From positions 1 through 64,000 of the forward strand of contig JAPPPZ010000057.1 in assembly GCA_028817275.1 (NCBI GenBank): a stretch of 64,000 bases of DNA, written 5' to 3'. Made by a program: the position numbers and the translations under genes. Shown piece by piece: positions 9,082 to 21,395 of the stretch (the first letter of the stretch is position 1; the number at the start of each line of letters is the position of its first letter). The notes beneath the pieces are model-generated. The model had not been told where the DNA came from and made no database searches. It was given only the letters and a program-made list of their open reading frames with translations. This DNA comes from Gammaproteobacteria bacterium (lineage in GTDB: Bacteria > Pseudomonadota > Gammaproteobacteria > Arenicellales > Spongiicolonaceae).

Positions 9082-9816
9082 TCAGAAATCCTGCGAATCA
9101 AGGCATATGCGCCCGATGTCGGAGGATTTAATGCGGAACTTGGTGCCGTGGTTGCGCAAGCCGCCGAGTTTCCCGGTGCTGCGGTAGTCAAAATCTATGC
9201 AGATCAAGCCATCGACAATATTCTGAATGAAACTGCTGACGGCGATATTTTTATACAGCCGCGCCTCCAGATAACGAACACGCCGCACCGGAATTTTCTG
9301 CGTTTTGCCGCGAACCAATATAAGGCGCCGCAACTTGGACGTCGCTGCGTTGATTAACTCATCCTGCCTCCACTTGATAAGCGGAACGGCGCGGCCGTTG
9401 CCGTCCCGGTAATCCTTGTTATACACGGCCAAATGTTTTACACCGTTGTTTTCTTCGCCGACATAAAAACCAAGGCTGCTCTTGTCGCCGGCAAGTGTGT
9501 GGCGAAAGCCCGGGAGTTTCTCTTTACCCGAAGGCCAGCCCCACTTTCTGAGTATTGTCCGGTACCCTTCGCCCGCGCCTTTGGGGTCGTTGTGAAACAA
9601 AGTAATAAGCGTTCCGGACGAACCGTGAAACTTTAATTCCCACGCGCCCGCATCAGGCGTGTCGGCGCCGCTGACTTCCAGCCCCATCAGATGCTCAAGA
9701 TAATTTCCGGGCGCGCCGGTGCCCGTGAACTTATCCGGAATATCCAGCCAGCCCCGGCCGAGAACGCTTCGCATGCGCTCAAAGACTTCCTTATCTCTTA
9801 ATGGCGGCGGATTCAT
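9082..9816 (-). CDS. Type II restriction endonuclease, MvaI/BcnI-like
   Basis: 244 residues from the ATG at 9816, which overlaps the end of the methyltransferase gene by 26 bp; a longer frame to 9882 would overlap more. The nuclease signature is seen as GLEVSGADTPDAGAWELKFH: an acidic residue followed by a GAWELK stretch, as in the MvaI/BcnI branch of PD-(D/E)XK enzymes, which cut CC-N-GG type sites. The adjacent methyltransferase on the same strand fits a complete RM system. Base composition is less GC-rich than the flanking transporter operons, a sign of transfer. The site specificity cannot be read from the sequence. Confidence 0.72.
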   Translation of the reverse strand: MNPPPLRDKEVFERMRSVLGRGWLDIPDKFTGTGAPGNYLEHLMGLEVSGADTPDAGAWELKFHGSSGTLITLFHNDPKGAGEGYRTILRKWGWPSGKEKLPGFRHTLAGDKSSLGFYVGEENNGVKHLAVYNKDYRDGNGRAVPLIKWRQDELINAATSKLRRLILVRGKTQKIPVRRVRYLEARLYKNIAVSSFIQNIVDGLICIDFDYRSTGKLGGLRNHGTKFRIKSSDIGRICLDSQDF

Positions 9817-10645
9817 GAAACAACGATTTTTTTGAATCCCGAATACGTTTCCGCGCAGCCGCGCAGTACTCCCGGGAAACATCCATCCCTATCCACTCTC
9901 TTCCGCAGGACTCAGCGGCAATGGCGGTGGTGCCGCTGCCCAGGAACGGGTCGAGAACCACGCCGCCCGGGGTGGCGGACACACAGCGGCGGGCCAACTC
10001 CACCGGGAAAGGGGCCGGATGGCGGTTGCCGCGCTCCTGCGGAATGGTCCACACATCGCCCTGGGCGTTGGCCCTGGGCGCCAGGCGAAAATCTTTGCCG
10101 GCAATCATGTAAATGACTTCGTAGGTCGGAAGAAAATATCCGGGGTTGAAATTAATGCCGCCTTTCCGCTTCCAGATAATAATCTGGCGCACCGGGAAAC
10201 CGCTGACAATTTCCGTGCGGTCCTGCAACAGGCCGTTTTGCACCCGCCACTTGTGGTTGTAGAAAATCACGCCGTCCCTGCGCAAAACCCTCACCATTGC
10301 CGACAAGCATTCCCTCTGCCACGCGACATAGTCGACATAGGGCATGTCATCGCCGTGCTTCTCGTAGCCTTTTTGCAGCGCGGCATTGGGCCATTTTCCG
10401 CCGCGCCCGCATTTGAGGCCGTTGCCGGTGCTGTTGCGAATGTTGTAAGGCGGGCTGGTGACGACCACGCCGACCGAATTGGCCGGCATTTTTTTCATCA
10501 GGCGGATGCAGTCACCGTGGTGGACTTTGCCAAGCCAGGGGGACAGATTTTCACCGCCGTCACCGACTCTGCCGGTCATGCGGCGGCGGTTGGACGAAAC
10601 GAGGCGGACTTGCTTCCCGCTGGCTTTAATTCCGGCAACCATCAC
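9791..10645 (-). CDS. DNA methyltransferase of the first RM system (N4-cytosine/N6-adenine type)
   Basis: 284 residues, or 262 if translation begins at the internal Met at 10579. The catalytic motif IV, VVTSPPYNIRNS, comes before the SAM-binding motif I, LDPFLGSGTTAIAA, the order of beta-class amino-methyltransferases. SPPY favours N4-cytosine methylation, as in M.BcnI, but N6-adenine cannot be excluded. GKVHHGDCIRLMKKMPANS is the usual lead-in for such enzymes. It protects host DNA against the nuclease encoded immediately downstream, whose start it overlaps, so the pair is probably one transcript with the methylase first. Confidence 0.87.
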   Translation of the reverse strand: MMVAGIKASGKQVRLVSSNRRRMTGRVGDGGENLSPWLGKVHHGDCIRLMKKMPANSVGVVVTSPPYNIRNSTGNGLKCGRGGKWPNAALQKGYEKHGDDMPYVDYVAWQRECLSAMVRVLRRDGVIFYNHKWRVQNGLLQDRTEIVSGFPVRQIIIWKRKGGINFNPGYFLPTYEVIYMIAGKDFRLAPRANAQGDVWTIPQERGNRHPAPFPVELARRCVSATPGGVVLDPFLGSGTTAIAAESCGREWIGMDVSREYCAAARKRIRDSKKSLFHESAAIKR

Positions 10646-18396: not shown

Positions 18397-18482
18397 TGGT
18401 GCCCGGGGCCGGATTTGAACCGGCACGGGATTACTCCCGAGGGATTTTAAGTCCCTTGCGTCTACCGTTCCGCCACCCGGGC
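18397..18482 (-). tRNA. leuZ: tRNA-Leu (UAA)
   Basis: 86 nt including an encoded CCA end. The acceptor stem GCCCGGG pairs with CCCGGGC. The anticodon loop CTTAAAA contains TAA. The long class II variable arm and TTCAAATC T-loop are clear. Third of a Gly-Cys-Leu cluster that matches the E. coli glyW-cysT-leuZ order. Confidence 0.96.
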
Positions 18483-18487
18483 CGGTG

Positions 18488-18561
18488 TGGAGGCTGAGGT
18501 CGGAATTGAACCGGCGTAAACGGCTTTGCAGGCCGCCGCATAACCACTCTGCCACTCAGCC
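18488..18561 (-). tRNA. cysT: tRNA-Cys (GCA)
   Basis: 74 nt including CCA. Acceptor stem GGCTGAG/CTCAGCC, anticodon loop CTGCAAA with GCA, and T-loop TTCAATTC. It lies 5 bp upstream of tRNA-Leu in the same transcription unit. Confidence 0.96.
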
Positions 18562-18583
18562 CCGGTGCGCCCGTATAAAAATC

Positions 18584-18659
18584 TGGAGCGGGAAACGAGG
18601 TTCGAACTCGCGACCTCAACCTTGGCAAGGTTGCGCTCTACCAGCTGAGCTATTCCCGC
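18584..18659 (-). tRNA. glyW: tRNA-Gly (GCC)
   Basis: 76 nt including CCA. Acceptor stem GCGGGAA/TTCCCGC, anticodon loop TTGCCAA with GCC, and T-loop TTCGAACC. First tRNA of the cluster, directly behind a strong promoter. Confidence 0.96.
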
Positions 18660-18668
18660 GTGGGGGGG

Positions 18669-18698
18669 ATTGTAGGGGGTGGGGGGCGGGGTTGTCAA
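18669..18698 (-). promoter_or_regulatory. Sigma-70 promoter of the tRNA Gly-Cys-Leu operon
   Basis: On the minus strand a perfect -35 TTGACA (18693-18698) is followed after 18 bp by TACAAT (18669-18674). The region between the -10 and the predicted start is a run of C residues, a GC-rich discriminator typical of stable-RNA promoters under stringent control. The predicted start is about 3 nt before tRNA-Gly. Confidence 0.75.
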
Positions 18699-18726: not shown

Positions 18727-18756
18727 TTGCGGGCTGCTTATAAACCGGGGTAGAAT
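18727..18756 (+). promoter_or_regulatory. Candidate promoter of the second RM methyltransferase
   Basis: TTGCGG (18727-18732), an 18-bp spacer and TAGAAT (18751-18756). The -10 overlaps the upstream in-frame ATG at 18755, which argues that translation begins at the ATG at 18797 instead, leaving a leader of about 34 nt. Confidence 0.45.
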
Positions 18757-18796
18757 GAAAGGCAAGCATGAAAACAGGCACTGCGTGGAATCTCCA

Positions 18797-20167
18797 ATGA
18801 ACGATATCAGTGACGGCCATCAGCCTGAAATCGGCGCAGCCATGAAAGGCTGGAATTGTTCGCCCGCGGCGAAAAATATCGAATTCAGCGACCCTGCTTT
18901 TGCCACTAACAAAACCCAGCCTGTTCACCGCTGGGTCCCTTGGGTCGCCGGGTTTTCGCGGGATTTCGTCCGTAGTGCGCTAAATCGCCACCTTCATAAA
19001 CCGGGCGTGGTTCTCGATCCTTTCGCCGGCGTGGGTACTACGTTGATTGAGGCCAATCTTGCCGGCCATGAGACAGTTGGTTTCGAAATTAATCCCTACG
19101 CCGCTTTTGCATGCCGGGCAAAACTCAATGCGCGTGGAATTGCCCCGGATTGCCTTGGAAAGGCGGCAGAAGACTTTCTGGAATTTCACAATGCCGCCAT
19201 AGAGAGCAAGCGGCGGCCTGATACGCAAGCGCCGGAAGGATTTCATACTCGCGGCGTTTTCTACAGCCCAAAGGTCTTGCACAAGGTTTTGCTGGCGCAC
19301 GATTTCATCGCGGGTATAACCGACCCGGTGGTTGCCGACATGTTCCGCCTTGCCTTTGCTTCCACAATGGTGACCTATTCAAATTATTCATACGAGCCCA
19401 GCCTCGGGCGCAAGGCCGCTGCGGGCAGACCTGACGTCGTTGATTTTCCAGTCGCTGTGGAAATTGCGGGAAAACTCCGCGAAATGGAGGAAGACATTCG
19501 GCTTTTGCAATGCCACCTCAGCGGAAAATCTCCCAAAGCGGCTGTTTTTAACAAGTCATTTTTCGACTCTCATAATCTTTTGAGTGCCGGCTCGGTGAAT
19601 CTTCTCATCACCTCACCGCCGTACCTGAACAACTACCATTACAATCGAAACACCCGTCCACATCTCTTTTGGCTCGGCTTCATGCATTCGCCCAAGGACC
19701 TGAAGCCTTTGGAAGAACAGAATTTCGGAAAGTTCTGGCAGACTGTGAGAGAGGACGAACACATCGGCCTTGACTTTCCCATCAAGGATTCAGAAATTTC
19801 CCAGTGCCTGAAAACATTAAGGGGAAAAAATTCGGGACGTGGAATATACGGCGGTAATGGCTGGGCCAATTATGCGGCGTCATATTTCAACGACTGCTAC
19901 CGATTCTCGAAAGCCGCGAAATTCGCCCTTCGCAGGCGGGGAACCGCGCTGGTTGTGATTGGCAACAGCATTCTGCAAGGCGTGATGATTCCCACGGATT
20001 GCTTTCTCGCAAAAATTGCCGAATTTGCCGGCTTGGAAGTTGTGGACATTCACATTCCCCGAGCCACCCGCGTGGGAAACAGCATCATTCAGTCAAAAGT
20101 GCGTGTGGCCAAAGCCGGGAAAGGCCAGCAACTCTATGAGGCCGTCGTCGAGTTGCGAAAGCGCTGA
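18797..20167 (+). CDS. DNA methyltransferase of the second RM system
   Basis: 456 residues from the ATG at 18797 (see the promoter overlapping the alternative ATG at 18755). SAM-binding motif VVLDPFAGVGTTLIEANLAG precedes the catalytic motif LLITSPPYLNNYHYNRNT, the order of alpha-class amino-methyltransferases; the wide spacing between them suggests an internal target-recognition region. It methylates DNA to protect against the convergent GIY-YIG nuclease, with which it shares 34 bp at the 3' ends. It begins about 100 bp beyond the tRNA-Gly promoter, inside the otherwise conserved pgsA-tRNA neighbourhood, and its composition is less GC-rich than its neighbours, both signs of insertion. Confidence 0.85.
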   Translation: MNDISDGHQPEIGAAMKGWNCSPAAKNIEFSDPAFATNKTQPVHRWVPWVAGFSRDFVRSALNRHLHKPGVVLDPFAGVGTTLIEANLAGHETVGFEINPYAAFACRAKLNARGIAPDCLGKAAEDFLEFHNAAIESKRRPDTQAPEGFHTRGVFYSPKVLHKVLLAHDFIAGITDPVVADMFRLAFASTMVTYSNYSYEPSLGRKAAAGRPDVVDFPVAVEIAGKLREMEEDIRLLQCHLSGKSPKAAVFNKSFFDSHNLLSAGSVNLLITSPPYLNNYHYNRNTRPHLFWLGFMHSPKDLKPLEEQNFGKFWQTVREDEHIGLDFPIKDSEISQCLKTLRGKNSGRGIYGGNGWANYAASYFNDCYRFSKAAKFALRRRGTALVVIGNSILQGVMIPTDCFLAKIAEFAGLEVVDIHIPRATRVGNSIIQSKVRVAKAGKGQQLYEAVVELRKR

Positions 20168-20775
20168 CGAATTTTGGCAAGGACATCACTGCGCTGCAGT
20201 GGTGTACCCGTCAAACGGTCCGCCCATGGCCGCCCGGGATGCAGAACATCCCACTCCGAACGGGCCTGGTTATGCCGGCCGCTCCCGGGGTCGTGGTTGC
20301 CAAACCCGTCAACCGTGGTGTTCCACAACGGGTCAAATTTCCGAATCATCTGAGACTCGACCGAAGAAATGAGGTCGGTTTCCATTCCCCCCAGAATTAC
20401 AAACCGACACCTGAAGTCATCAACGACAAGCCCCGCCCCATGAGCAATACTGCGCCCATGCTCCCGTAACCGGGAGCACAAAGGCTGCTCGTTGTCACTT
20501 GTCTGAACCCTCCCCGTTCGCCAGCCCCGGGGAACCGCCTTGCCGACGTAAATCGGGTCCAGGCATTGTTCTCGGTTGGCAACGCCGAAGTGTTGGTAAT
20601 ATTTGCTATCTCCAAGGCAATAGATTGCATAAACCCCAGCCCCCGGAAAATTAACCGGGGGAGGCAAAGAATGCACCGGGGTCTTGCCGAAAAATTTAAC
20701 CACCTGGTCCACAATGCTCTGGTAGCCCGGCGAGTTAAAAGTATGGAGTTGTAAATTAACGCTGGTCGGAACCAC
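20134..20775 (-). CDS. GIY-YIG restriction endonuclease, Eco29kI-like
   Basis: 213 residues. The GIY-YIG core is visible: GAGVYAIYCLG, then DPIYVGKAVPRGWRTGR, an arginine in CSRLREHGRSI, a catalytic glutamate in SSVESQMIRKF, and DPLWNTTVDGFGNHDPG near the end. The layout matches the Eco29kI/NgoMIII/Cfr42I enzymes, which cut CCGCGG; this protein may share that site but the sequence alone does not prove it. Convergent with the methyltransferase, overlapping it by 34 bp, so the two genes must have separate promoters. Confidence 0.8.
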   Translation of the reverse strand: MVPTSVNLQLHTFNSPGYQSIVDQVVKFFGKTPVHSLPPPVNFPGAGVYAIYCLGDSKYYQHFGVANREQCLDPIYVGKAVPRGWRTGRVQTSDNEQPLCSRLREHGRSIAHGAGLVVDDFRCRFVILGGMETDLISSVESQMIRKFDPLWNTTVDGFGNHDPGSGRHNQARSEWDVLHPGRPWADRLTGTPLQRSDVLAKIRQRFRNSTTAS

Positions 20776-20819: not shown

Positions 20820-21395
20820 TCACCCCCGACCAAACCCCGCCCATGCCGCCCGCAGGTACATCACCATGGACCAAAGCGTCAGCCCCGCCGCCAGCACCAG
20901 CAGCACCTCGCCCAGGCGCAGCATGGAAACGTCCACCACCGACTCGCGGTAGAGCATCATCGCTATCGCAACAAACTGCCCGGCGGTTTTGATTTTGCCC
21001 ACCATGGACACCGACACCCGCGCGCGGTTGCCGAGTTCGGCCATCCATTCGCGCAGCGCCGACACCACCAATTCGCGGCCGATGATGACGGCAACCACCA
21101 GGGCGAAGACGGTTTGGCTCAGCACCTGCCGCATCACCGCCTCGTCCGACACCAGCAGCACCAGCGCGGTGACTACAATGAGTTTGTCCGCTACCGGGTC
21201 GAGGAACGCGCCGAACTTTGAGTCCTGTTTCAGGCGCCTTGCCAGGTAGCCGTCCAGCCAGTCGCTCAGGCCGGCGGCCAGGAACACCGCCGTCACCGCC
21301 GTGTTGCTCCACGCAAAAGGCAGCAGATACAGCGCCACCAGCACCGGGATCAGCAGGATGCGAAAAAAAGTTAAAGCGTTGGGAATATTCAGCAT
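20820..21395 (-). CDS. pgsA: CDP-diacylglycerol--glycerol-3-phosphate 3-phosphatidyltransferase
   Basis: 191 residues, the usual PgsA length. Opening NIPNALTFFRILLIPVLVAL and the CDP-alcohol phosphotransferase signature SDWLDGYLARRLKQDSKFG followed by AFLDPVADK are exact in spacing. Several membrane helices. It makes phosphatidylglycerol phosphate at the inner membrane. Six bp after uvrC, as in other gammaproteobacteria, where the tRNA cluster would follow directly; here an RM pair intervenes. Confidence 0.94.
   Translation of the reverse strand: MLNIPNALTFFRILLIPVLVALYLLPFAWSNTAVTAVFLAAGLSDWLDGYLARRLKQDSKFGAFLDPVADKLIVVTALVLLVSDEAVMRQVLSQTVFALVVAVIIGRELVVSALREWMAELGNRARVSVSMVGKIKTAGQFVAIAMMLYRESVVDVSMLRLGEVLLVLAAGLTLWSMVMYLRAAWAGFGRG

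Follow-up and report, generated by a model that had tools for sequence, protein, structure and literature searches.

The window analysed here, a 64,000-nt stretch of DNA, carries two open reading frames in the interval between surE–tRNA(Leu-Cys-Gly) and pgsA–uvrC, raising the question of what this pair does and how it came to lie there. We propose, with a probability of about 85%, that the frames form a two-gene type II restriction–modification (R-M) system of the DraI (M.DraR1/R.DraR1) kind, in which CCGCGG is cut by one protein and protected as N4-methylcytosine (m4C) by the other. The nuclease would cut CCGCGG sites of incoming DNA, while the methyltransferase would place m4C on those of the host and so spare it. 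The pair would have been acquired horizontally by the ancestor of the genus, entering the gap that runs from the pgsA stop codon to the tRNA promoter, a position that would leave the flanking genes intact and the tRNAs with a promoter of their own (Table 1).

Table 1 Features of the inserted gene pair and its flanks, in window coordinates.
Feature	Position	Strand	Remark
tRNA-Leu(TAA), tRNA-Cys(GCA), tRNA-Gly(GCC), insertion flank	18397..18659	-	ARAGORN
Promoter-like TTGACA-18-TACAAT, 9 bp before tRNA-Gly	18669..18698	-	consensus match alone
Putative -10 (TAGAAT) for the methyltransferase gene, without strong -35	18751..18756	+	read by eye; kept in the congener
DraR1-type (alpha-class, SPPY) DNA methyltransferase, 456 aa	18797..20167	+	predicted m4C at CCGCGG
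34-bp overlap of the convergent 3′ ends of methyltransferase and nuclease	20134..20167		also 34 bp in congener L056
Eco29kI-family GIY-YIG restriction endonuclease, 213 aa, GTG start 20775	20134..20775	-	predicted CCGCGG cutter
pgsA, insertion flank	20820..21395	-	

The nuclease matches the Pfam family RE_Eco29kI (PF09517) with an E-value of 6e-62 (208.7 bits against a cut-off of 30.8) and the solved Eco29kI structure (PDB Eco29kIR) with an E-value of 3e-61 over residues 10–209. All six active-site residues (Y49, Y76, R104, H108, E142, and N154) are kept. According to the accessible part of the Eco29kI study, mutation showed Y49, R104, H108, E142, and N154 to be important, and Y76 belongs to the modelled active site (PMC1952068). 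All but N154 are invariant in nucleases with either kind of partner, be it a DraR1-type enzyme (41/41, including the window) or a C5 cytosine methyltransferase (21/21), and N154 itself is present in 41/41 and 18/21, respectively. The nuclease of the single congener (G001; L056, RKSH01000068) is also full length and has all catalytic residues. Across the 100 genomes of our search among relatives, PF09517 was found in three: the window genome, the congener, and G039.

The methyltransferase matches the Pfam family N6_N4_Mtase (E 2e-10), and in alignments is 90% identical to its counterpart in the congener and 50% identical to an enzyme recorded on Deinococcus radiodurans pCP1, for which tblastn gives 48.2% identity over 91% of the query, as expected of a full-length homologue. 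The pCP1 enzyme is M.DraR1, the link being made through plasmid, family, and size. In the accessible part of its description, M.DraR1 is carried by a small plasmid of D. radiodurans and is an alpha-class enzyme that converts the second C of CCGCGG to m4C, as determined by SMRT sequencing and digestion; all ten residues listed there as conserved are kept in the window enzyme (PMC6712171). The motif DPFAGVGTT (residues 74–82) precedes TSPPY (272–276), giving the alpha-class order of FxGxG before a C-terminal SPPY. With specificity carried over from this 50%-identity homologue, the window methyltransferase is predicted to methylate CCGCGG as m4C. An AlphaFold2 model (pLDDT 85.9) adopts a class I (Rossmann) methyltransferase core, and a mostly helical stretch at about residues 117–240, between the SAM motif and SPPY, would suit a target-recognition region positioned as in the alpha class. 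Trm11 provides the best VIA-align matches to the model (Z 18.9, rmsd 2.6, 178 residues), and the Foldseek matches include E. coli Dam. We read the Trm11-like RNA methyltransferases among the best folds as evidence of the shared core and, given the linkage to a nuclease, not of an RNA substrate.

Translation of the methyltransferase most likely begins at ATG 18797, because the congener retains this codon together with its context, whereas the alternative ATG 18755 reads ATA there. The preliminary description had placed the start at 18727, a position that corresponds to neither codon. We read by eye, as leads only for promoters of the two genes, the TAGAAT at 18751 and TGGTATGAT upstream of the nuclease GTG. 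No additional gene separates methyltransferase and nuclease in the window, and their convergent overlap is exactly 34 bp.

The inserted pair explains the broken pgsA–tRNA junction of the window. Sixty genomes were searched for pgsA (E 1e-20), 53 matched, and the best 30 of the 53 loci were examined; two belong to this genus, and the other 28 form the comparison set, all for the distance to tRNA-Gly(GCC). From the pgsA stop to tRNA-Gly the window measures 2160 bp, compared with 0–225 bp (median 76) in 27 of these 28 order-level relatives; in the exception (L048, genome G044), no tRNA-Gly is seen in the available sequence after pgsA. Only the congener carries the pair, in the same convergent arrangement after pgsA, on a contig that stops about 100 bp short of the expected tRNA position and leaves the far side of the insertion out of view. 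The outcome named beforehand as speaking against an insertion, namely that all relatives carry the pair, is thus absent. The preliminary description also holds in its other remarks on the locus, from the convergent overlap to a lower GC content and a missing integrase: GC is 0.527 and 0.561 in the methyltransferase and nuclease genes against 0.628 in pgsA and 0.629 in the window, the corresponding GC3 values are 0.58 and 0.62, with 0.83 in pgsA, and the pgsA–tRNA interval has no integrase or transposase frame (frames read by eye). No direct repeats of at least 14 bp flanking the insertion were found between 18560 and 21000, by a search that also missed a gapped 50-bp copy in the congener described below.

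We place the insertion between the pgsA stop and the promoter-like site because TTGACA-18-TACAAT is still present in the window, 9 bp before tRNA-Gly. This site is probably the old tRNA promoter, judging from its match to consensus. Promoter-like sites with at most two mismatches to TTGACA/TATAAT occur in the pgsA–tRNA gap of 16 of the 27 relatives. Between pgsA and the nuclease, the congener also has a gene for a D12-class adenine methyltransferase (L023:4872-5990). Behind it lies a 50-bp stretch that repeats the 3′ end of pgsA with gaps (pairwise alignment score 53, against a maximum of 28 in 200 shuffles), which looks as though another cassette had been inserted at the end of pgsA. After pgsA in L048 (2140-3555), there is an 83-aa frame ending in GLCCCW, which we take to resemble, perhaps, the leader of a peptide precursor. 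The pgsA–tRNA junction may thus take other cargo too.

Purifying selection acts on both genes. A comparison of the two congeners gives dN/dS values of 0.135 (methyltransferase) and 0.227 (nuclease), alongside 0.259 for pgsA and 0.156 for uvrC; the pair is therefore more than chance frames. Their dS values (0.35 for the methyltransferase and 0.31 for the nuclease) are higher than those of pgsA (0.10) and uvrC (0.17), one possible reason being the codon bias of host genes.

The content of the host genome bears on how the nuclease could be tolerated. CCGCGG occurs at 1.23 per kb in a 304-kb sample of the genome, and no C5 enzyme (PF00145) was found elsewhere in this assembly, which is 93% complete, so that one could be missed. 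Because of this site density and the lack of a C5 enzyme, an active nuclease would need the neighbouring methyltransferase, and because CCGCGG has no adenine, an amino-methyltransferase guarding it must make m4C, m6A being useless there. If the nuclease is active, then, given the family assignment, its neighbour must protect the host through m4C. Homology, residue conservation, and selection indicate that the pair probably functions as a DraI-type m4C R-M system. On the other side, the closest methyltransferase outside the genus, at locus L057, has lost its nuclease, and the 304-kb sample shows no special avoidance of CCGCGG, which ranks 23rd of 52 palindromes with an observed/expected ratio of 0.81 (0.78–1.25 in seven relatives without a PF09517 match). 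As a test of specificity, site avoidance favours neither outcome. Four other palindromes (CGATCG, TTTAAA, TCGCGA, and AGCGCT) are strongly under-represented in the same sample (ratios 0.22–0.35), perhaps as marks of other restriction systems. The window itself holds a second likely R-M pair on the reverse strand (9082-10645), composed of an MvaI/BcnI-family nuclease (9082-9882; Pfam E-value 4e-26) overlapping an N6/N4 methyltransferase (9791-10645; 9.5e-37).

To place the pairing in a wider context, we used one scan of GTDB r220 species genomes with three methyltransferase queries, yielding 72 loci in a table sorted by hand. In 50 of the 72, the methyltransferase has an Eco29kI-like nuclease no more than about 400 bp away, several of these loci being truncated or split and so not all intact; partner counts outside Pseudomonadota come from this methyltransferase-led scan and are biased towards the DraR1-type partner. 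The linked genes are convergent at 30 loci, with the nuclease in tandem downstream at 18 and upstream at two. The nuclease lies farther off at two of the remaining loci and was not found at 20, including some that stop close to a contig boundary. The methyltransferase tree, from which five short rows of the 72 were left out, mixes phyla, requiring 32 changes among 19 groups against a minimum of 18. The accessible part of a tally from REBASE, published in 2024, counts three m4C CCGCGG systems and 310 m5C systems (PMC10855626), so a system described there as a rarity now has 50 or more linked loci, spread over species-level genomes from many phyla. The literature searched, as far as its text was accessible, contained no statement that the DraI-type pairing is widespread or that partners were swapped.

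Within Pseudomonadota, the DraR1-type pairing does look uncommon: a sample of 398 genomes contained 12 other nucleases, 11 with C5 partners and one without a partner in the available sequence. C5 partners also accompany the nuclease in nine of ten plasmid records fetched besides pECO29 (47 records matched) and in 21 of 22 nuclease-led viral contigs, L211 being counted among the 21 on a weak match. Two loci, similar to each other, came from a methyltransferase-led viral scan, each with the same convergent pair. The preliminary description had called the pairing unusual. It was right that an amino-type enzyme stands where pECO29 has a C5 enzyme, and our genome search detected no C5 enzyme, but the novelty falls away, since the DraI type is published and 50 of 72 loci are linked; the amino-type/Eco29kI pairing is ordinary for its kind.

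The arrangement of the linked loci is also relevant to a proposal that would stand beside R-M function, namely that convergent, overlapping transcription is a device balancing nuclease and methyltransferase. We consider this rather unlikely. The frequency of convergence (30 of 50 linked loci) and the closeness of the stops, which lie within −60 to +20 bp of each other in 26 of the 30, would favour such control. However, the overlap varies in length, the other 20 linked loci are tandem, and the C5-partnered systems examined are tandem as well, save for the weak C5 match in L211. Stop-to-stop distances in the convergent loci (congener included) range from −53 to +333 and are exactly 0 in nine. 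Convergence is common; the 34-bp overlap is found only in this genus and is not kept elsewhere.

It is less likely still, and in our view improbable, that the methyltransferase is an orphan epigenetic enzyme accompanied by a decaying passenger nuclease. No nuclease is seen in the available sequence at 20 of the 72 homologous loci, L057 among them, and orphan methyltransferases of the DraR1 type probably exist, to judge from these loci. Against decay, the nuclease is full length with every catalytic residue in both window and congener, and its dN/dS is near that of pgsA. The least credible alternative, to which we give hardly any weight, is that the two are not partners, the methyltransferase having a different specificity and the nuclease being guarded otherwise: specificity is predicted, C5 enzymes guard other Eco29kI-like nucleases, and the G039 nuclease follows a third, weakly matching methyltransferase-like gene, but the host genome (93% complete) yielded no C5 enzyme, linkage recurs at 50 of 72 loci in many phyla, and the same convergent pair is found on two viral contigs.

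As a candidate DraI-type system, the window pair can be set beside the published ones. By methyltransferase homology, motif order, and an Eco29kI-family partner, it is assigned to this type; it falls outside the Eco29kI-type m5C class, its partner being an N6_N4_Mtase protein and its genome having no PF00145 match. The DraI system of D. radiodurans pCP1 shares with it a homologous full-length methyltransferase (50% identity) and an Eco29kI-family nuclease (44% identity to R.DraR1 over 75% of the query). As far as the accessible text goes, the published m4C systems report no V, C, or H element (PMC10855626), and the window pair likewise has no intervening gene. The D. radiodurans genes lie about 10.5 kb apart on the plasmid, whereas those of the window are convergent neighbours flanked by pgsA and the tRNAs, and R.DraR1 adjoins cyanobacterial plasmid nucleases with C5 partners in our tree rather than the window nuclease. 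The Eco29kI system (pECO29) shares the nuclease family, the active site, and presumably the site, but its tandem partner, annotated as a DNA cytosine methyltransferase, belongs to another family; the host mark in the window organism would thus probably sit on another atom of cytosine than in the Eco29kI system. Putative m4C CCGCGG systems of Roseiflexus castenholzii and Roseiflexus sp. RS-1 are reported alongside R.DraR1 and M.DraR1 in the accessible part of PMC10855626. Compared by that published description, they belong to the m4C CCGCGG class that is predicted for the window pair, and the RS-1 system differs as a one-frame fusion from the two genes of the window.

The nuclease tree offers a clean case for asking how members of one nuclease family exchange the methyltransferase that protects against them. 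It comprises 89 sequences, 43 with DraR1-type partners, 42 with C5 partners, and four for which none was found; short matches (<140 profile columns) were left out, the C5-labelled L176 sits on a very long branch, and the two nucleases of L077 share the label of one methyltransferase. The partner label requires at least seven changes between C5 and DraR1-type. Well-supported branches alone force five for the DraR1-type label, bootstrap trees require 8–10, and the hypothesis that the DraR1-partnered nucleases form one clade is rejected (AU p 1.3e-5). The window nuclease and Eco29kI fall into one supported set of 31, with 23 DraR1-type partners, seven C5 partners, and one without. The topology thus indicates that the nuclease family changed partners repeatedly, although more than one change does not prove direction or transfer between lineages.

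R.DraR1, the Eco29kI-like nuclease that partners M.DraR1, is reported in the accessible text to cut unmethylated CCGCGG and also m5C-methylated CCGCGG (PMC10855626). Because of the latter activity, each swap would set the new system against cells or elements carrying the old one. This raises the question of conflict between m4C- and m5C-guarded systems of one site. Tentatively, and with more doubt than confidence, we suggest that one cutting site was kept while its guard was swapped many times between the unrelated m5C and m4C families, the swaps being hostile to carriers of the old system and the compact convergent pair being a mobile cassette that is widespread and prevails through attack on m5C-marked DNA. 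The commonness of the DraI-type kind and the repeated change of partner make the subject worth following.

Some individual loci add detail to this picture. At L057 (7317-7350), where the methyltransferase is 77% identical to that of the window, a tail reading NSTTAS remains of the lost nuclease, antisense to the methyltransferase end. On a short contig of G039 (L024:1505-2757), an Eco29kI-like nuclease is immediately preceded by a methyltransferase-like gene (218 aa) that contains DPPH; the N6_N4_Mtase match of this gene is weak and under the cut-off, and it is perhaps a third partner type. Eight carriers (L056, L057, L075, L086, L087, L089, L090, and L112) have isolate names of the PNGst, STY, RHO, APA, and COS series, which resemble the names of sponge-associated bins. 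If the carriers are indeed sponge-associated, this would fit exchange of the pair within sponge communities.
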